Shown here in pieces: positions 6,331-62,375 of a DNA stretch of 64,000 bases. The stretch comes from Mya arenaria (lineage: Eukaryota > Mollusca > Bivalvia > Myida > Myidae). The DNA is taken from positions 20,014,966 through 20,078,965 of the forward strand of contig NC_069125.1 of NCBI RefSeq assembly GCF_026914265.1, written 5' to 3'. The position numbers were made by a program, and so were the translations under genes. The notes below the pieces were generated by a model. It did not search any database and was not told the DNA's origin. It saw nothing but the letters and a program-made list of their open reading frames with translations. Numbering within the stretch: the stretch's first letter is position 1; the number at the start of each line of letters is the position of its first letter.

Positions 6331-6950
6331 CTCTAGTAGGTGCTGTTCTGTTGGGGCATTTTTAAGTATGCATACATTATATTTGTATTCTAGTGGCTGC
6401 TGTCCTGGTGGGGTGTTGTTTAAATATGCATACATTGTATTTGTATTCTAGTGGGTACCGTCTTGGTGGGGCGTAGCTAAAGTATGCATACATTATATTT
6501 GTTTTCTAGTGGCTGCTGTCATGGTGGGGCGTTGTTTAAGTATGTATATATTGTATTTGTATTCTAGTGGGTACCGTCTTGGTGGGGTGTAGCTAAAGTA
6601 TGCATACATTATATTTGTATTCTAGTGGGTTCTGTCCTGGTGGGGCGTAGTTAACGAATGCATACACAATATGTGTATTCTAGTAGGTACTGTCCTGTTG
6701 GGGCGCAATTAAAGTATGCATACATTATATTTGTATTATAGTAGGTGCTGTCCTGTTGGGGCGTAGTTAAAGTATGCATATATTATATTGGTATTCTAGT
6801 GGGTGCTGTCCTGGAAAGACGAAGTTAAAGTATGCATGCATTATATTTGTATTATAGTAGGTGCTGTCCTGTTGGGGCGTAGTTAAAGTATGCATATATT
6901 ATATTGGTATTCTAGTGGGTGCTGTCCTGGTGGGGCGTATGCATATAATA
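6331..6950. repeat. ~57 bp minisatellite, about 11 copies
   Basis: The unit contains CTAGTGGGTGCTGTCCTGGT then GGGGCGTAGTTAAAGTATGC and ATACATTATATTTGTATT. Copies differ by a few substitutions; GGTGCTG/GGTACCG/GGCTGCTG variants are intermixed. Occasional open frames through it are by-products. Confidence 0.9.
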
Positions 6951-18245: not shown

Positions 18246-18339
18246 GGGCCATTATGGTCCTCTTGTTTACTATTTTATAAATTTTCATTCTGGTTTTCGT
18301 CCCGGTTTGTATAATAATAACTATTTTTATTATAAGACA

Positions 18340-18690
18340 CTATGAGGACATAGATTTAAACCTTACTAAGACAAGCTATGTCCGATGGTTGTCTTTCCAT
18401 GACTTTATTGGACCTTTTCAGAGCTAGCAATTTAGCTACGGTTAGATCCATTCGTTTGCAGGTGATGCTTGTATCCGGTAGTTGAGTAACTGAAATTACT
18501 TATTCAATTTATATGTTATTTTTTACTTTAATTTTCATTGTTTTCAAGTTGATATTTGCTTTGTTAAAGCTTTTAATTTTAGTTTTAAGTTATAATTGTT
18601 AAATGTTAACAGGGTTTATTTTTTGAATACTGAAGACTGGTTTTGTCTCCGTAGTTTTCATTGTATTATTGGCCGAAGGTTATATGTCTG
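18340..18690. repeat. Dispersed repeat, copy 1 of a family of three
   Basis: GCTACGGTTAGATCCATTCG, then TTGTATCCGGTAGTTGAGT and a later GGGTTTATTT...TTTTGTCTCCGTAGTTTTCA, recur at 24780-25320, and the tail recurs at 22630-22800. No coding capacity. Confidence 0.6.
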
Positions 18691-27627: not shown

Positions 27628-29831
27628 TTATGTGAGAGCTTTAATGGCAAAAGTCTCAACATACCCGTTAGCGTTCATGCCTGACGCCATTCCTCCTGAA
27701 GGTTGACAACCAAGGCGCCACCTTGGACATCCCCTGCACTGAAACCCGTTGTACCTGTAGCTCGTCTCCTCTCGGCACTGTGGGGGAATCAGCATATCAG
27801 GACACGGCAGTGGTGGGCAGACCAGAGTTTCTATGGTTGACATGAACTTATCTACTGGTATAACACCAGTTAAGTCAGATATCCTCGTGGTTTCTTCAAC
27901 GGAATTTGTGTTCTGCAACGGCGTTTGCCGAGTGCCTGGAATACAGCCTGGTTTCCACCGTGGGCACAAATAACATGTTTGTCCTTTGAATTCATATGAC
28001 TGTTCTGATCTGCATTCTTTTGGAATCAGAAGACGTGGACATGGTAAAGGCGGACATGACTCTTTTGTTTTGTTTTTAGATGGGCAATCCGGTTTGATAG
28101 TTGGGCAGCCTGTGCATGTAATTCCATCCATTTTCATTGTACTTAAAACCACACATTTAGCAGGAGCTTTCAAAGTGGTGCAGTTTAATAATGGACAAAT
28201 AGGCTCAGATGAAATAGTGGTTGTGGTCTGAGTAGTTGTTTCTGTTTTAAATTCCTGAAGCAAATTCGGTGGATTTCCTGTTGGTTTACATCCTTCCCGC
28301 CATTTTGGACATCTGTAGCATGATTTTCCGCGAAACTGGAATGATTGCTCATCGCGGCATTCTTTTGGTATGAATACTCGCGGGCAAGCGAACAATGGGC
28401 ACGACATTTCAGGCTCGTTGTGGTTCATTTGGTTGGAATCACCGCCCGGTATACATCCTTCTCTCCACTTGGGACAGTGGTAACACGTTACCCCGTTTAA
28501 ACTGTATGGCTGCTCATCTCGACATTCTGGAGGAATGAGCATAAGCGTGCATGCTTTGAGAGGGCATTGGGTTTGCGATGTCATATCCGGGACTGGCGGC
28601 CTCGGGAGGTTATCATCTAACGGTGGAATACAGTTCGGGATTTGTTTTGGGCACCCCTGGCAGGCTTGACCTTCGTGCATGTACTGTGTTTCTTCTCGAC
28701 ATGCTGGGTGAATGTTTATCATTTGACAAGCAAGCGGTGGACATTTCCTTTGAGCAGTGTCTAAGTTAGCCCCTTCTATCGAAACATGTGGAATCGGACG
28801 TGCCAGTTCTCTACATTCCTTTCTAATAGAAGGACAATTTTCACAAACTTTACCCATGAATTTGAAGTATTCCCGTTGATAACAATTATTGTTTAATCCA
28901 GGTATTCTCTTACATCTCATTGAAGGACATGCTATTTCTGGTTTAGATGTACTGGTAACGGTTTCCATATTAATTTGTGACGGCTGGCAGCCTTCCCGCC
29001 ATTTTGGACATTTATAGCATCGCCTACCAATGAAAGTGTAAGGCTGTTTTTCTTGACAATCCGCAGGGACTGTTTCTTTACACGCCATCAATGGACACAC
29101 GGCAGGAACAGCACCATCGGGAAGTGAGATATACACCTTTCGTTCCTCCTCTCGACAACCGACTCTCCACTCTGGACACCGCTGACACACCTGTCCCTGA
29201 CTGTCCGTGTAGTTTCTTTTCTCTTCACACTCGGAAGGAATGTGCCCTTTACAACGAAGAAGTCCGCAAGATTTTCTTGGAGTAAATGAAGCCGGTTGTG
29301 CATTATGATCTGCTCTAGCTTTACACGATTCCTTCCACTTCATACATCCGTTGCAGACTTGTCCGCCAATAATTGTCGTTGGGACATCTCTACATTCTTC
29401 TGGAATAAATTCCATCGTGCAGGCCAGCACTGGACATTTCGCATCAGGCTTACTTATGGCTGTTTGTTTACTTTCTAATGTGCAATTTTGATTATGAATA
29501 GGGCACTTATTACATACAAGACCTTTGAATTCATATGTCTCTATAACTTTGCATTCAATTGGAATATTTGACAAAGGACACTCTAATTTGGGACAAGCAA
29601 CACCATTGGGCACGCCTGCAGCAATCATGCTTTCCAGTTCAGACTTACACGATGGCTTCCATTCTACACATCCATAGCAGTGTTGTCCGCTCCTTGTCAA
29701 TACAGGCTTTATTTGGCACTCGGTGGGTATGAACTCTAAGGAACACGCGATATCGGCGCAGTCAGAAATACTTTGCTGCGAGCTTGTAAAAGGATCTGTT
29801 ACATTGTCTGCTGTTGTTGCCTGTCTATACG
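27628..29831 (-). CDS. Cysteine-rich repeat protein, twelve six-Cys repeats; terminal exon
   Basis: One open exon carries twelve tandem repeats of about 47-75 residues, each with six cysteines arranged C-x(4)-C-x(6-9)-C-x(11-13)-C-x(2)-C-x(4-6)-C; the first repeat departs slightly at its start. A strong copy reads CPLFACPRVFIPKECRDEQ then CYRCPKWREGC. Paired cysteines and spacers rich in Pro, Ser and Thr suggest a secreted, disulphide-bonded protein. The frame stays open upstream to an ATG at 29865, but a good acceptor (ATATAATATTTCAG) ends at 29832, so I place the exon border there and expect a signal-peptide exon further upstream, not found. The frame ends at a stop at 27628-27630. It is not the VWC, antistasin, EGF or TIL pattern as I know them. 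Function unknown. All twelve repeats keep all six cysteines, so it is under selection. Confidence 0.85.
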
Positions 29832-29958
29832 CTGAAATATTATATGTACTGGTTATTAGTATCATTGTCTACCTGCCCGTCACCATATTACCCATAATTG
29901 CTTATTTTCGAAATATAGATTTGTTATTGATACAAAGTTACCGTAATTGACTTCTGTA

Positions 29959-35496: not shown

Positions 35497-36327
35497 ATCA
35501 GTCTCGGGTGGAAAACAAAAGGATGAATAGCACAATTAAAATATAACATATAAATTGAATACGTTAATTATAATTAACATTCTCGGGTGAAAAACAAGAG
35601 GATGTATAGCACATATAAAATAGAATATATTAATTGAATACGTTAGTTATAATTAACATTCTCGGGTGGAAAACAAGAGGAAGTATAGCACATATAAAAT
35701 AGAATATATTAATTGAATATATTAATTAAAATTAACATTCTCGGGTGGAAAACAAGAGGATGTATAGCACATATAAAATAGAATATATTAATTGAATATG
35801 TTAATTATAATTAACATTCTCGGGTGGAAAACAAGAGGATGTATATATATAAAATGAAATTTATTAACTGAATATGTTAATTATAATTAACATTCTCGGG
35901 TGGAAAACAAGAAGATGTATAGCACATATAAAATAGAATATATTAATTGAATATGTTAATTAAAATTAACATTCTCGGGTGGAAAACAAGAGGATGTATA
36001 GCACATATAAAATAGAATATATTAATCGAATATGTTAATTATAATTAACATTCTCGGGTGGAAAACAAGAGGATGTATTGCACATATAAAATAGAATATA
36101 TTAATCGAATATGTTAATTATAATTAACATTCTCGGGTGGAAAACAAGAAGATGTATAGCACATATAAAATAGATATAAAATAGAATATATTAATCGAAT
36201 ATGTTAATTATAATTAACATTCTCGGGTGGAAAACAAGAAGATGTATATATATAAAATAGATTATATTAACTGAATATGTTAGTTATTGTGTTATACATC
36301 CTCTTGTTTTCCACCCGAAACACTGAT
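35497..36327. mobile_element. 79 bp tandem array bounded by inverted unit copies; Helentron/HINE-like candidate
   Basis: Ten direct copies start (at CTCGGG) at 35503, 35582, 35661, 35740, 35819, 35895, 35974, 36053, 36132 and 36222. Each reads CTCGGGTGGAAAACAAGAGG then ATGTATAGCACATATAAAAT and an AT-rich TTAATTATAATTAAC end. At 36297-36327 the unit start appears inverted (CATCCTCTTGTTTTCCACCC, then ACTGAT). The left edge is ATCAGTCTCGGGTGG and the right edge, inverted, is ATCAGTGTTTCGGGTGG, so the array has matching inverted ends. Bivalve pearl-type and Helentron-related elements carry central tandem cores; assignment to them is inference. No coding. Confidence 0.7.
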
Positions 36328-42150: not shown

Positions 42151-43341
42151 TTTTGGTTGTTGCGATTTAAAAACGCCGTTATATCTAACAATAGTTAGTG
42201 TGGTTGTTTATGTTGTTGTTGTTGTCGTTGTTGTTAATAATCATACCTTTTTAATGTAGAATAAACAATATCAAGTTTTCACAACTGTATCTTTTATGAA
42301 CCGATTTATTTAGATGACTTTTAGATTATACATACCTGTGCTTAAACAAAATAACACGATCCAAAAACTCAGGCATCTTCTACCGTCCATGTCTACTTTT
42401 TAATGCCTAATATTCTAAAAGTTGTTGCTGCACTTTCGTTAAATTCTAGTTTCACATGTTTACTCATACATACTTTACTTAATGTAATAGTTTAGCCTCT
42501 ACCATATTTGTGGACAATAATTTACCTAGCGGTCAGTCTAAACAGTGAATCATCAATCAAAGTTGACAGGCAACTGGCCACTTACGCGTTGTAACGTCCG
42601 TCACGTAAACGTTGTGGTGTGTATTGGACTTGCCATGACAAGATGATTGGTCAAGCAATGTGTTAACGTACCGACTGGACGAGGTAGGGGCAGAAATAAA
42701 TTATTAGTCAACTTAGTAAACATCCTCGTTATTATTTGTATTACATCTTAAAATAGCCAATACTCATAAATAATTGTTTTATATATAAGATATATTTCCT
42801 TTTAAACTAGTATAACGATTTGTTCCGCATAAATAATTATCGTAAGATATGTTTAAAGAAAGTATTCAAAATATACGAGTGCTTCGGAGTCCATTCAGTG
42901 GATAATTTTAGCGGGTTCAACAGTTAAACGCTCGATTTTAAATTATTTATCTTTCCTTATAAAATAAAGAAACTGCTTTAAAAACTGTCATTTCTTTTTT
43001 TGTATTTTTTGTATGTTCATTGTACTTTTCTTCATGTAAATGAACTATAATAAATTCATCTATGACTTCTACTGAAGTTTCGTTTATTTGAAATATCGCC
43101 GTTCTTTGAAACCTTGATGATGACAACAAATTCAATATCTATATACATATTCAATATCAATTTCCATAGAAAATAAAATTCGTTTGATAAAAGCACCCAC
43201 TTCCATTGTAAATCATCGAACAAGTATTGCGCAGCAAACTATGTGTTCGATATTTATAGCTCGTCTGTTTGTTCGAAGACAAAAATCCGGCTATTGCCGG
43301 TGATTGGGTTGATATTGTCGTCGGTGGCGTCGTCGTATTTG
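42151..43341. other. Intergenic; no recognised gene
   Basis: Holds a GTTGTT-rich run near 42205-42236, otherwise AT-rich non-coding sequence. A small CCGGCTATTGCCGG hairpin lies near 43290, immediately before the minisatellite. Confidence 0.45.
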
Positions 43342-44577
43342 CGATTACTCAAACAACATGAACATACTGTAACATTGGCGATCACTCAAACAACATGAAC
43401 ATACTGTAACATTGGCGATCACTCAAACAACATGCACATACTGTAACATTGGCGATTACTCAAACAACATGCACACACTGTAACATTGGCGATCACTCAA
43501 ACAACATGCACACACTGTAACATTGGCGATCACTCAAACAACTTGCACATACTGTAACATTGGCGATCACTCAAACAACATGCACATACTGTAACATTGG
43601 CGATCACTCAAACAACATGCACATACTGTAACATTGGCGATCACTCAAACAACATGCACATACTGTAACATTGGCGATCACTCAAACAACATGCACACAC
43701 TGTAACATTGGCGATTACTCAAACAACATGCACACACTGTAACATTGGCGATTACTCAAACAACATGCACACACTGTAACATTGGCGATTACTCAAACAA
43801 CATGCACACACTGTAACATTGGCGATTACTCAAACAACATGCACAAACTGTAACATTGGCGATTACTCAAACAACATGAACAAACTGTAACATTGGCGAT
43901 TACTCAAACAACATGCACATACTGTAACATTGGCGATCACTCAAACAACATGCACATACTGTAACATTGGCGATTACTCAAACAACATGCACACACTGTA
44001 ACATTGGCGATCACTCAAACAACATGCACATACTGTAACATTGGCGATCACTCAAACAACATGCACATACTGTAACATTGGCGATCACTCAAACAACATG
44101 CACATACTGTAACATTGGCGATCACTCAAACAACATGCACATACTGTAACATTGGCGATCACTCAAACAACATGCACATACTGTAACATTGGCGATCACT
44201 CAAACAACATGCACACACTGTAACATTGGCGATTACTCAAACAACATGCACACACTGTAACATTGGCGATTACTCAAACAACATGCACACACTGTAACAT
44301 TGGCGATCACTCAAACAACATGCACACACTGTAACATTGGCGATCACTCAAACAACATGCACACACTGTAACATTGGCGATCACTCAAACAACATGCACA
44401 CACTGTAACATTGGCGATTACTCAAACAACATGCACACACTGTAACATTGGCGATTACTCAAACAACATGCACAAACTGTAACATTGGCGATTACTCAAA
44501 CAACATGAACAAACTGTAACATTGGCGATTACTCAAACAACATGAACATACTGTAACATTGGCGATTACTCAAACAA
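43342..44577. repeat. 37 bp minisatellite, ~33 copies, with higher-order structure
   Basis: The unit is GATCACTCAAACAACATGCA then CATACTGTAACATTGGC. Copies are nearly perfect and vary mainly at two sites: GATTAC or GATCAC, and CACAC, CACAT or CACAA before ACTGT. The run of variants ending ...GCACAAACT, GAACAAACT, then CATACT occurs twice, about 17 units (629 bp) apart, showing block duplication. 37 is not a multiple of 3 and no frame stays open. It ends about 250 bp downstream of the C1q gene stop. Confidence 0.95.
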
Positions 44578-44785
44578 CGTTCAAGATATTCAACATGCAC
44601 ATGTATAGGCCCATAACTATGTTCTTAATAACTGCCGAGTTACGCTCCCTTTTTGACAGAAAAATAACATGCAATAGCTTTAATTTTGGATTTAACTAAG
44701 GATATTCAAATGCAACACCGTAAAATGTTGGTAAAGACATAAATCTGAAGGGAATTAACCACGTTAAAGGTTTGTTTGTTTTGTT

Positions 44786-57099: not shown

Positions 57100-58797
57100 C
57101 TGAAACGACACAATTGAAAAAGAATTTAGATTTACGAGTCACATTTTCTCAAAAATAAACCAAAGGAGACAAAAATACAACCCTAAATTCTTTAAAAACA
57201 AGACTTGATAAAAAACACTATATCTTGCTGCAAAATAGTAAGAAATGGTGAAGACAGACCAGTGACATGTGGTAAATGAATCGCTGAAATATTAAGAAAA
57301 CTGCAGGAAAGTCTTTGGACAGCGTTACCCATCAATATTGAACTGGAAGACGCTATTAAACTGGTTGTACAATCGTATAACTACACAATTTTCTAAAGTA
57401 TGCAACGGTATGGGCTTTTCTACATACCATTTTTAAGTGTTAAAGGCAACATTAAAAGACAATGTATGCTTTTGATGGTCAATCATTGATTGGTTAGCAT
57501 GGGAATAGCCTGTCAAAATTCTAAATTGAACATTGTAGGCTATAAAAAATTTGAATCAGTGTTAAAGTAAACCTGGGAGGGAGTGTGGGACTCAATTCCA
57601 GGACCGCACGGGGAGCAGGACTTTCCAACCCCTATATCAAAGACTTTTCAACCCCTGGTTGAAATATTTTAATAGCCATATTAAAGACTTTTTAACCCCT
57701 ATTTATATTAAAGATTTTTCAACCACTATTATTTTTGTCAGTCAGGTGTTGTCTTTTTCATTGTTTTGTTGTTTTTTGGCAAAAAAACTTTACAAATTAA
57801 CAAATTGTTATTGAAATACAATTAAAGATTTATTTGCCTTATTTGTTACACTTTTCTCCAAAGTACTGGATGAAATTTAGACAAGGTGTTGCATTGATTT
57901 ATCAATCACTTGTTTCATGACAGCAAATGATATCTTTGATTAAATATATGATTTTTTTAATTATATTACATTGGTAGAACTAGAATATATATTACTCAAG
58001 ATGTACTTAGCTGGCATCTAGCCATGAGTTGCAATACCTCACACGATGATATGCGTATGTTCTCAATATTAGTAAAAGTTAACAGTTAATGGTTAGTGTT
58101 ATTTTGGCTATAATATTCGGTACATTTATAGCAATGGTACAGTAAAGTAAGATTTTGATGCCTGGTTACCCTGAAAAATTGCTGTATTATTGTATTATTC
58201 TAAAGTGTATCTGAAGGAATTAACATATAATATGTACAAAGTTATGTCCATCCTTTTATTCTTTAAATAACAAAATTGAATAATTGTAAAAGAAAATAAA
58301 TGTATTGAAGGATTTACGGAACAATCTCCATATTTTGACTGTAGACCACCCATAAAAACCTTCACTTGAACATTTATAAAACTTTAATTGCTTTTAAAAA
58401 AGGTCAGCAGTTGAAACATTTTGTTGTAGTACCATATTGCTTTTTTAGTTGTTGGTTATGTGTTTATATCTAAAAATTCTGAGAATTGGGGGTAGGGAAA
58501 TAAGTTAAAATTAAATTCATTTTTGTTTGGTTTTTAAATCTGGAAAATTAAACACAAAATATATCAAGCTGCTCAAAGTTTAAAATGATGGCCATCTGAC
58601 AGGGTATAACAACCTTTTTTTTAAATTGACTGTCACTTTTAAGTTATTATAACCTAAATTAAAGGTGTTATGAAGCCCCTTAATCCCATAAGAATTTATG
58701 ACCATGTCACACATGTTGCCCATTAATGAATGTGTGACCTTCATTCCATTCTTTAATTGCATAAAACAATACAATGCTTAGAGCATTTTTTACTTAC
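57100..58797. other. Upstream of the visible INO80B exons; no gene recognised
   Basis: It includes three or four degenerate copies of AAAGACTTTTCAACCCCT between 57590 and 57730. The rest is AT-rich non-coding sequence. The missing INO80B 5' exon may lie here or beyond, but no start exon ending in the needed phase is convincing. Confidence 0.4.
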
Positions 58798-59012
58798 AAG
58801 GGTATAGCCAGAAGTTCGTGGAATTGCTTAATAAAATCAACACATTTTAACATTTTTCAACGAACGTCAGCTTGCTATAAAATCTATTTCAGGTGTAAAT
58901 GACAAATAAAATTTCAAACTGATACATACAATATAAAGGAAACTACAGCTTTTTCATTAACATGAGGTCAGTATAGCCCCTGCAGTTCAAACATCAGAAT
59001 CTGATGTCAAAG

Positions 59013-60257
59013 TTATAACTTCTCAAAGTAAGAGCCGTTCGCAGCAATACACCGTCGATGTCTTGCTACCCACTGCCGGTAAATGTCACTGGACCACCCT
59101 GACTTGTAAGAATACAGGCGTGTCTGAGCTTCACTCTGTAGTTCCTGAAAGTCATTGAAGCGTTTACCTTTCAGTTCACATTTAAGTTTCGAAATAGAGC
59201 AAAATCGCATGGTGCTAGGTCTGCGAATAAGGGGGGTTGGGAAGGATTGCCACTTCAAGCTGGAATGTCGTGGTAGTCTGGGCATCCTCCGATCTATGCG
59301 CTGGTGTATTATCCTGGTGAAGAATCCACCCATCATGCAACGCCTGTGGTCTCTTTAATGCCATCGCCCTGTACAAGTCACGCCTCAATACCTTAAATGG
59401 AGAACATAAATGAGGCTAATATTTAACATACCTAGTGCATTTGTCGCGTTTTGCATACTTCATCAAATATCATAATTAAAACTAACACTTATTCAATCAC
59501 ATATTTTTAATCATAAACTTCTTTAAACATTGTTTTATGCAGATTTAATCAAGATCTTAATATTGATAAAAATGAATTTTGTTATATATCACTTTACCTT
59601 AGAATAGTAAGCACCTGTCACAGATTGGCCCTGTGGAACTGCATGGAGAAGAATAACACGGTGCACATCAAAGAAGACAATGAACATATGCTTTCCTATC
59701 GAGCGGGATGATCGTGCCTTCTTCGGAGGCGGGGAACCGGTAGTGATCCATTGACTGCATTGCTGTTTTGTCTCAGGGTCATAATAAAACAGCCAGGATT
59801 CATCACAAGTGACTATCTTCTCAAGAAAACGGTTTCCTTCCTTTTCGTACCGAGCTAAGAATCGGCGTGATTCTTGTACTTTTCTGCTCATCTCATTTTC
59901 TGTCAACAGCCGCGGAACCCAACACGCACTCACTAGACTCATTTTCAATCTGTCTTTCATTATCCTCCGTACCGACCCATAACTCATGTCCAACATCTTG
60001 CCTATTTCATGAAGAGTGACTCGACGATCAGCGTCAACGATGTTTTTCACGGCCTCGATGTCACTCTCCATAGTTTGTGAATACAGTCGCCCAGACTTCA
60101 CGTCGTCACAAATGCTGTCCCGCCCCTCACTGAACCGCTTGTGCCACTTGTACACAAGCATTTGCTTCACTGGAGTGTCACTCGATGCTTCATTCATCAG
60201 TTTAAGTGTTTGCAAGAAGCTTTTCCTAGGTTCACACAGAACTGTATCACTGCCCAT
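59013..60257 (-). pseudogene. Mariner transposase, two exon-like parts, damaged near the C-terminus
   Basis: Part 1 (60257-59598) starts MGSDTVLCEP and has a helix-turn-helix (VYKWHKRFSEGRDSICDD; LHEIGKMLDMSYGSVRRIM), the linker WVPRLLTENE and the first catalytic Asp in VTCDESWLFYYDPETK. It ends TACTATTCTAAG, followed by GTAAAGTG. After 206 bp, TTCTCCATTTAAG precedes part 2 (from 59391): VLRRDLYRAM, HQDNTPAH with the second Asp, PNPPYSQ, then after a one-base loss LAPCDFALF with the third Asp. A second one-base loss precedes KLKCELKGKRFNDFQELQ. The stop is at 59013. All three catalytic Asp codons survive. The Tyr-Ser-Lys/Val-Leu junction is uninterrupted in ordinary mariners. Confidence 0.9.
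59392..59597 (-). other. Candidate spliceosomal intron in the mariner transposase gene
   Basis: 206 bp with donor AAG|GTAAAGT and acceptor TTATGTTCTCCATTTAAG|G. It is AT-rich, contains stops in all frames and sits exactly between two codons, so removal restores the conserved YYSKVLRR context. The alternative is a chance insertion, which would rarely leave such borders. Confidence 0.7.
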
Positions 60258-60502
60258 TTTTTCAATGTGATTGGTCAACAAAACAAGATATTGTCATGGG
60301 TTATTTTTGCAACTGCGGAGGAATGCGCGACCACATGTTTCCATAGTGATCACTACGTTGTTGTAATAACATGCTATACGCTGAAACTCGCATTCCTAAT
60401 TTCAAATTACCTGATTATTATTGTAAGAAAGTTTTAAAGATATGCTGCATATTGTTTTCATTTTATCAAGCTTTTCCACGAATTTCTGGCTATGCCCTCG
60501 TA

Positions 60503-61436
60503 TATACCACGTTATAATAGAATGTCCTAATTATTTATCTGAGAAAACAAACATTTATAAAATCTTATGTTACACAGAGATATGTTTTTACATTTATCAA
60601 CACATTTTAAAAGCATTTAGTGATTGAATTTTTTTATTCTCTTCGGGAGATTTTTGATAATTGGCATAATGTGGTTTATTTACTGTTTAAAAACTTTTCA
60701 TCTGAGCTTGACATGATTATAATTCTATGTTATTCTATTTGCAATTTGACCACATTTGAAACTCAATGTATAATGCATTTTGAACAACTTTAAACTCAAT
60801 GTATAATGCATTTTGAACAACTTTAAACTCAATGTACAATGTATTTTGAACAACTTTAAACTCAATGTTTACTTTTGTATTTCTTAAACTTTGTCTGCTA
60901 AATAAAGATATTTTGAAATATCATGAAGATTTATTTTGAAGTTCAACTTATTCAAGTGTTGTCTTTTTATTGATAACAAAATATGTTTTATGGCTAGGCG
61001 ACTAAACAACAAAATGAACAGTCAGTCATGCATTTTTTGTAGTATTTATTTACATGTAAATATTTTATGAGTTATTGTATTATCATGTGTTCATAGTATG
61101 TATTACATATTTGTTATGTATTATCTTTAAAAATTTTGTTATATTTTTATTCTTAATAGGTTCTTGATTTTTAAATTAATTTTCAAAATAAATCTTTTAT
61201 TGTTGTAGTAATTATTTGAAAAAATCTGAGAAAGTAAGGGGTTGAAAAGTCTTTGTTCATAAGGGTGTTGGGATTTTGGCGTGACGTTATGCAATGTATG
61301 AGAGAGATGTAACACGCAAAATAATTATATTGATACTTATGTAACGTAACTTCCTGTGTTGTTACTGTATGTTTGACTTAAATAAAGGAAACGAACCTGA
61401 GTTAATGTCTTTTCAATTCATGGAATTATCGATGCA
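60503..61436. other. AT-rich spacer with a 33 bp tandem repeat and an inverted repeat arm
   Basis: AACTCAATGTATAATGCATT and TTGAACAACTTTA form about 3.4 tandem 33 bp units at 60759-60868. AGGGGTTGAAAAGTCTTTG near 61238 is an inverted counterpart of the 57590-57730 repeats. An AATAAA near 61380 may belong to a remnant of the adjoining LTR element. Confidence 0.6.
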
Positions 61437-62375
61437 ATGAAAATTCTTGACGATAAAATTGTATCACAAATGGATGTTGACAACACTACACGTGAGATGA
61501 AAGAGACGATCGCGTATTATTTACTTTTGAAACTTCGACTGCAGAGAGAGAAAAGGCATTTTGCTACGGTAACTTCAGTTATCCCTGCCACTGCGTCCGC
61601 CGCTGTAACCCCTGATGTTTCAGGAGCACCATCAGATGAAGCTACATGTACCTCCGCCAATACAACTATGCCTCCCGCCGAAGCAACTGCCGCTGTCAAC
61701 GCTCAAGAAGAATACAGAAACGTAAACCAGTCATCTCGACCACAAGAGCCGATAGTAGAATCATTGCAACAAGTCATCACACCTTCATACTACTACAAAT
61801 TGCCGAAACTGTCCCTTCGGGGCAAACTTGTAATATGGCAAACATTTTGCGATTCATTCGAGTCAACCATTCACGGAAATCTTACGTTATCCGACGTGCA
61901 GAAATTTGGGTATTTAAAATTTTTGCTAGAAGGAGATGCAGCAATCAAAGGTTTCACATTAACCAATGCTTACTACAGGCAAGCTCTAAATTTGTTGACT
62001 TAATGTTTTGGACAAAAGCACAAAATTTCAACTGCATACATGCAGACACTTCCACAGTTGCTTTCCCCATCCAACAACATTAGAGAGCTCCGTGATTTCA
62101 ACGATCGACTAGAAACTACGATCAGAAGTCTTGAGTCGTTAGGTGCAGGCAGTTATGGAAACTTGCATATGCCCATAATCCTTGAGAGGCTTCCACCGGA
62201 AACAAGGCCTCTCACTTTACCAGAGATCATGGAACCGAAAGTTGGACTGAAGTTTGTCTGAACTTCGCGGAGCAATATACAAAGAACTAGAGATTATGGA
62301 GACTGGTCAGACACAGGAACAACTTACCTTCCAACCAACTGCCTCGTTCCTTACAAGTGCCCGAAATGTATTGAT
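61437..62375 (+). mobile_element. Fossil BEL/Pao LTR element fragment (gag-like region)
   Basis: The visible part carries KLSLRGKLVIWQTFCDSFES and LSDVQKFGYLKFLLEGDAA, the conserved wording of the BEL/Pao gag-like domain, followed by weaker downstream gag similarity to about 62375. No protease, reverse transcriptase or integrase follows and no second LTR is seen, so only a 5' portion remains. The copy is broken, with a few interruptions, and looks moderately old. Sequence just upstream with an AATAAA could be LTR remnant. Confidence 0.85.

Follow-up and report, generated by a model that had tools for sequence, protein, structure and literature searches.

Mariners of animals are portrayed as elements with a single ORF and few demands on the host. 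The DNA analyzed here, which we call the window, is a 64,000-nucleotide stretch of the genome of the bivalve Mya arenaria, and it contains a mariner in which the transposase reading frame is interrupted by 206 nt. An earlier note, made from the window sequence, proposed that the interruption is a spliceosomal intron and that the element could belong to an intron-bearing lineage. The question raised by the locus is whether the segment is indeed an intron carried by a family of transposons, or an insertion into one dead copy. The features of the element, and the related families described below, are collected in Table 1.

Table 1. The window mariner and the intron-site segments of related families
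Feature	Position in window or places in genome	Strand	Evidence
Mariner element (family A), dead copy	58797-60500	minus	TIRs, Pfam Transposase_1, Mos1 similarity, genome copies with same ends
5' terminal inverted repeat	60474-60500	minus	24/27 match to other end; present in most other full-length copies
3' terminal inverted repeat	58797-58823	minus	24/27 match to other end; present in most other full-length copies
TA target-site duplication, 5' side	60501-60502	n/a	TA in sequence, compared with other copies
TA target-site duplication, 3' side	58795-58796	n/a	TA in sequence, compared with other copies
Transposase exon 1 remnant (DNA-binding part, catalytic Asp 1)	59598-60260	minus	ORF 59589-60281, Pfam and Mos1 matches
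Putative spliceosomal intron, phase 0, GTAAAG...TTTAAG	59392-59597	minus	206 nt; 40/40 aligned copies, families B-E same position
Frameshifted exon 2 remnant (catalytic Asp 2 and 3, C-terminus)	59013-59391	minus	Reading frames; SETMAR match
Family B	L092-L094		151-nt GT...AG segment, same boundary
Family C	L095, L097		228 and 162 nt GT...AG segments, same boundary
Family D	L096		177-nt GT...AG segment, same boundary
Family E	L098 and L101 (177 nt), L105 (899 nt), L106 by eye		SSYYSQ/GTTGG...TTCCAG, same boundary

The assignment to the mariners by terminal inverted repeats and a TA duplication, as made in the earlier note, was confirmed on the window sequence. The inverted-repeat arms of the window copy (58795-58844 and 60453-60502) are 84% identical over 50 nt, and within the window the core of the TIR has matches at the two mariner ends only, shuffled sequences giving a mean of 0.00. 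TA is found at both element ends in 29 of 40 aligned genomic copies, the window copy among them. Exon 1 of the window copy is a 230-aa open frame that matches Pfam Transposase_1 with an E value of 3.5e-9 and Mos1 with an E value of 1.4e-18. The segment splits the transposase precisely between the codons of YYSK/VLRR, at the borders given in that note. Joining of the flanks raised the Transposase_1 score from 36.8 to 42.8 bits and extended the match from position 61 to position 76 of the 80-position profile, and the alignment of the joined peptide with Mos1 continued through the junction.

The window copy belongs to one intron-bearing mariner family, family A, and is a dead relic of it; the earlier note does not mention that the copy is dead. 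Its exon 1 has one frameshift near the 5' end and has lost the start codon region of the transposase through a deletion of ∼155 nt near 60260-60269, between ATTGA repeats. Most full-length relatives keep these ∼155 nt, and in the less damaged ones they include an ATG in the reading frame of exon 1; the stretch was considered as a second intron and rejected, since it reads as the end of the 5'UTR followed by the start codon. All three catalytic Asp codons expected from the earlier note are present in the window copy, but a frameshift in exon 2 puts the third, as read by eye, in a different frame from the second. Exon 2 frames of 125-126 codons are open in the family A copies L013, L016, L020, and L046.

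Several other features of the window were recorded. A match to DUF1759, which we take to be a domain of retrotransposon proteins, lies ∼1 kb from the mariner (61401-62003, plus strand, E 2.3e-12), and the window also has a C1q-domain gene and frames that by eye look retrotransposon-like. Rfam SECIS_1 matches at 18334-18395 on the plus strand with 38.5 bits against a cut-off of 35. Tandem arrays at 43337-44578, 35499-36287, and 6332-6939 have units of ∼74, 79, and 58 bp, respectively, and a direct duplication of ∼1.2 kb (1-1157 and 1272-2464) has 94% identity. An open frame of 746 aa (27628-29868, minus strand) consists of repeated cysteine-rich units and has no Pfam match at E 0.01.

The segment in the window has the general appearance of an intron. 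Its 5' splice site agrees with the consensus at 7 of 9 positions, with G missing at +5. At its 3' site 12 of 16 positions before the AG are pyrimidines, a value reached by 4.8% of AG sites, and a branch-point-like CTCAT lies at -23; taken alone, this is weak evidence. In length and splice-site scores the segment resembles seven introns inferred from reading frames in a window gene for an aldo-keto reductase (its sixth intron was omitted, as the border was impossible to place, and from a second gene a single 5' site was obtained). The segment was also considered as a folded or TIR-bearing element. This was rejected because its fold is less stable than those of its shuffles (z 2.01) and an inverted-repeat search of the window reported no inverted repeat of the segment ends.

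A search of the source genome (1.216 Gb in 18 contigs) with the element returned 187 candidates, of which 40 were scored. An alignment was made of 39 scored places and the window copy, and flanking DNA sorts these 40 copies into 23 independent insertions. A segment of 188-216 nt is present in every copy and hence in all 23 insertions, with the 5' GT in 40/40 copies (23/23 insertions) and the 3' AG in 37/40 copies (21/23 insertions). An introner would leave related copies in many genes; a genome search with the segment by itself gave 148 candidates, and all 40 scored places lie inside copies of this mariner.

Core columns of the alignment were those filled in over half of the copies. They amount to 687 nt for exon 1, 198 for the segment, and 381 for exon 2, such that the joined exons make 356 codons, stop included. 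All 40 copies are broken. Stops occur in the exons of some copy at 50 codon positions, none of them common to more than 4 of the 23 insertions; the most shared one is found in 12 of 40 copies, mostly representing one insertion multiplied within a larger repeat. The 71 frameshifts across the copies are likewise scattered, none being common to more than 5 of the 23 insertions, and the terminal stop is kept in 38/40. The segment, on the other hand, has stops in every frame that are common to 22-23 of the 23 insertions. Reading on from exon 1, a stop is reached at the third codon in 38/40 copies. The frame of the progenitor was therefore very probably open only without the segment. The copies differ pairwise by ∼7%, alike in exons and segment (the mean distances omit the five 5'-truncated copies L037-L041).

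Some of the copies (L011, L012, L024-L028, L031, L033, L034, and L043) have common flanking DNA, which is also found 3' of L037, and several common stops. One dead mariner has therefore been multiplied here as part of a larger repeat rather than by transposing itself.

The query used for the element search included the segment and could have favored copies bearing it; a search with the spliced protein is free of this bias. The protein query was a spliced natural reading (L029) with the junction at residue 225, and 136 of 1704 candidates were scored, giving 171 matches. Among the matches listed, rows starting in exon 1 end by residue 234, mostly at 226-228, and exon 2 rows begin at residue 223-225. 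Thirty loci from this search, some of them already aligned, were inspected: 28 carry the segment followed by exon 2, the segment being partial in L064 and L065, and two (L063 and L077), which are cut off, contain no exon 2. No intronless copy was found in the matches listed for the 136 scored candidates. Rows crossing the junction in L064, L080, and L085 were rejected as intronless copies, since the segment is present there and the rows represent read-through. A 361-aa open frame in L106 was rejected as well, being a tandem repeat fused to exon 1, with exon 2 following a stop-bearing gap.

Two further searches gave the same picture. All 150 scored genome matches to PF01359, from 383 candidates, stop at position 60-65 of the 80-position profile; joined exons reach position 76-77. 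A pattern search for the empty site found three matches, as against six in a reversed control, and none of the three has mariner homology. The earlier note had named, as the sign of a private insertion, copies that match at the site but are without the segment, and none was met in the genome searches by element, spliced protein, and PF01359. These results hold for the scored candidates, and intronless mariners further removed may occur in this genome. The viral contigs, genome contigs, and phages searched outside the source genome yielded no relative.

In four further families, B to E, a dissimilar GT-AG segment occupies the identical phase-0 codon boundary. Six more distant places (L092-L097) have 42-47% amino-acid identity in exon 1, and in all six exon 2 follows after a gap; where measured, identities of the families are ∼42-50%. 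Family E was compared with L093 in pieces, with 37-51% identity. L103 was excluded from the border evidence because its border could not be placed, and L100 because of a rearrangement at that place. The introns of different families have no similarity to each other at E 0.01 except for one 18-nt stretch between B and C. These families, with the 40 copies of family A, bear out the suggestion of an intron-bearing lineage.

The only intact copy seen outside family A is L093 of family B, although its 3' end seems to be cut inside the TIR. Its spliced frame of 352 aa is intact and contains all three Asp residues, the catalytic identity of which we assume from Mos1, and it aligns with Mos1 over residues 8-350 with an E value of 5.3e-41. 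The unspliced frame ends at 239 aa. The triad lies in TCDETW, HQDN, and APMD, and a hand count against Mos1 puts 34 residues between the second and third Asp; in family A (L016) there are 35. L092 and L094-L097 all carry some damage, affecting exon 2 or the start, and L092-L094 are 97-98% identical to each other. Separately, genome contig C6 has five PF01359 matches in tandem (47454408-47469956), spaced ∼3.8-4.1 kb apart and equal in score to one another and to the family B copies. This array looks like a tandem duplication that carries a mariner.

If exon 2 has been translated behind the segment, its differences should bear the mark of coding constraint, and families A, B, and C were compared in this respect. 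Differences in exon 2 at codon positions 1/2/3 are 0.42/0.37/0.76 between A and B, 0.44/0.35/0.65 between A and C, and 0.44/0.25/0.66 between B and C. Exon 2 is close in this to exon 1, for which A and B give 0.42/0.34/0.67. Inside a family there is little or no such bias (the two C copies give 0.04/0.01/0.03 in exon 2, and two B copies 0.02/0.01/0.03 in exon 1), in line with the decay expected after insertion. The bias between families lies behind stops that splicing would remove, which argues that exon 2 was translated after the intron arose. It is hard to explain without translation while the families diverged, and is the strongest indirect evidence that the intron is used.

Taken together, these observations lead us to assign a probability of about 0.93 to the reading that the segment is a true, old, position-conserved spliceosomal intron of a Mos1-type (DDD) mariner clade. 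The evidence is of a comparative kind, from genomic sequence. The presence of an intron at the same site in related families argues that it is an inherited part of the mariner lineage and not a stray insertion. We infer a single origin of the intron across the families. The polarity, gain rather than loss, is taken from Mos1 and SETMAR, whose genes we assume to be uninterrupted at the intron site, the source genome having yielded no intronless mariner as a root.

The alternative that survives best concerns this single origin. Introns might have been gained independently in several families at the same AAG/GT-like site rather than once in an ancestor. The dissimilarity of the introns would fit such a history, although at 42-50% protein identity intron sequences are expected to diverge beyond recognition in any case. 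The site encodes a conserved K/Q-V/I/M-L/R stretch, and AG/GT is described as a preferred site of intron gain in PMC3443670. However, position and phase are the same in 5/5 families examined, for which one gain is the simpler explanation, and we regard repeated gains as unlikely.

It is less likely still, and in our view quite improbable, that insertion of the segment killed a master copy, which an intronless relative later mobilized in trans, the segment being shared by its descendants as a passenger that was never spliced. Such a history would account for the death of all 40 family A copies, one of which was multiplied further in a larger repeat. It would not account for different segments at the same codon boundary in four other families, for the coding constraint on exon 2 between A, B, and C, or for the intact spliced frame of L093, and no intronless relative was found among those scored.

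The last alternative is a private insertion, of a small transposon or repair filler, into one dead copy, with splice-like borders by chance. The window copy does have a 7-nt direct repeat, TAAGGTA, at both borders of the segment, which could be read as a target-site duplication. In-register border repeats of at least 7 nt occur at 0.08% of positions paired at random in the window but at 6% of AG/GT pairs, and the seven aldo-keto reductase introns have border repeats of 6, 2, 3, 3, 5, 6, and 2 nt. The window by itself therefore cannot separate an intron from an insertion. Most family A copies have GTTTTG after the junction, a shorter repeat, and TAAGGTA is therefore not the state of the family but partly a mutation of the window copy. 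Border statistics alone being indecisive, it was the genome search, with the segment in 40/40 copies from 23 insertions, that led us to reject a private insertion with a target-site duplication, filler from double-strand break repair, or a single-copy introner, and we give this explanation practically no credence.

Accepting that the segment is an inherited intron, the expected behavior of the element can be outlined. The intron lies in phase 0 and separates the codon of the first catalytic Asp from that of the second. As the element moves as DNA, the intron is copied along with it, and the host spliceosome would have to remove it to give a predicted transposase of ∼352-355 aa with all three Asp residues. 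Without splicing, translation would end 2-38 codons past exon 1 in the cases read, with a putative product of ∼229-253 aa that has the DNA-binding part and the first Asp only. The predicted unspliced products are 231 aa for family A, 239 for B, 253 for L095, and 229 for L096, with 240 for L097 when counted from an internal Met.

Retention of the third intron of the P element yields a truncated DNA-binding repressor instead of transposase. By analogy, the mariner intron may have been kept because its retention serves the element: in tissues that leave the intron in the message, the unspliced protein of ∼229-253 aa could bind the TIRs and act as a repressor, and a P-element-like switch of separate origin in mariners would then be common to at least five families. 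This proposal is speculative, and we think it rather doubtful. The transposase of the P element belongs to an unrelated family, and tissue-limited splicing, which is established there, is a hypothesis here.

An intron kept while members of the clade diverged to ∼45% identity, with a transposase dependent on the host spliceosome, would be a counterexample to the picture of mariners as largely host-independent. It raises the questions of whether the intron limits transposition to certain tissues or hosts, whether the unspliced product acts as a repressor, and whether dependence on an intron limits horizontal transfer. At a practical level, mariner searches that are blind to introns report such elements as truncated.

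The closest known systems are Mos1, a mauritiana-type mariner (PDB 3hos and 4u7b), and SETMAR/Hsmar1. The present elements resemble them in near-full-length alignment of the transposase, the three catalytic Asp residues, short TIRs, and the TA duplication. They differ in that the catalytic domain is split here by an intron, whereas theirs is not known to be interrupted at this site. The earlier note held that mariner transposases normally lack introns, which is in keeping with the literature, but the wider Tc1/mariner superfamily has precedents: introns are already known in Minos, in TLEWI, and in fungal elements. None of the titles listed in a literature search dealt with an intron of conserved position in mariners of Mos1 type, most subscription journals being outside its scope.

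Of the precedents, we take Minos to be Tc1-like and the fungal families with HTH_psq/HTH_Tnp_Tc5 transposases to be Fot/pogo-like. Minos, from Drosophila hydei, is described in PMC2874221 as having a 60-bp intron and 254-bp TIRs, as compared with the short TIRs here. For the fungus Sclerotinia sclerotiorum, PMC4188875 reports six Tc1-Mariner families with single GT/AG introns of 124-276 nt, some of them optionally retained, and with HTH_psq/HTH_Tnp_Tc5 transposases. Other papers treat cryptic splicing in Bari3 (PMC4120734), AGGT sites and direct repeats in intron gain (PMC3443670 and PMC4202315), and introners as mobile introns (PMC9860276). The nearest precedent by host is TLEWI. A passage of PMC10379824, citing Puzakov et al. 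2020, states that Tc1/mariner elements are "as a rule" intronless and yet that TLEWI has 3-5 spliceosomal introns in mollusks. As far as that passage goes, TLEWI has in common with the elements described here the Tc1/mariner superfamily, a mollusk genome, and spliceosomal introns; it differs in being Tc1-like with several introns, whereas the present elements are of Mos1 type, with D as the third catalytic residue and, in the copies read, one intron between ATG and stop.
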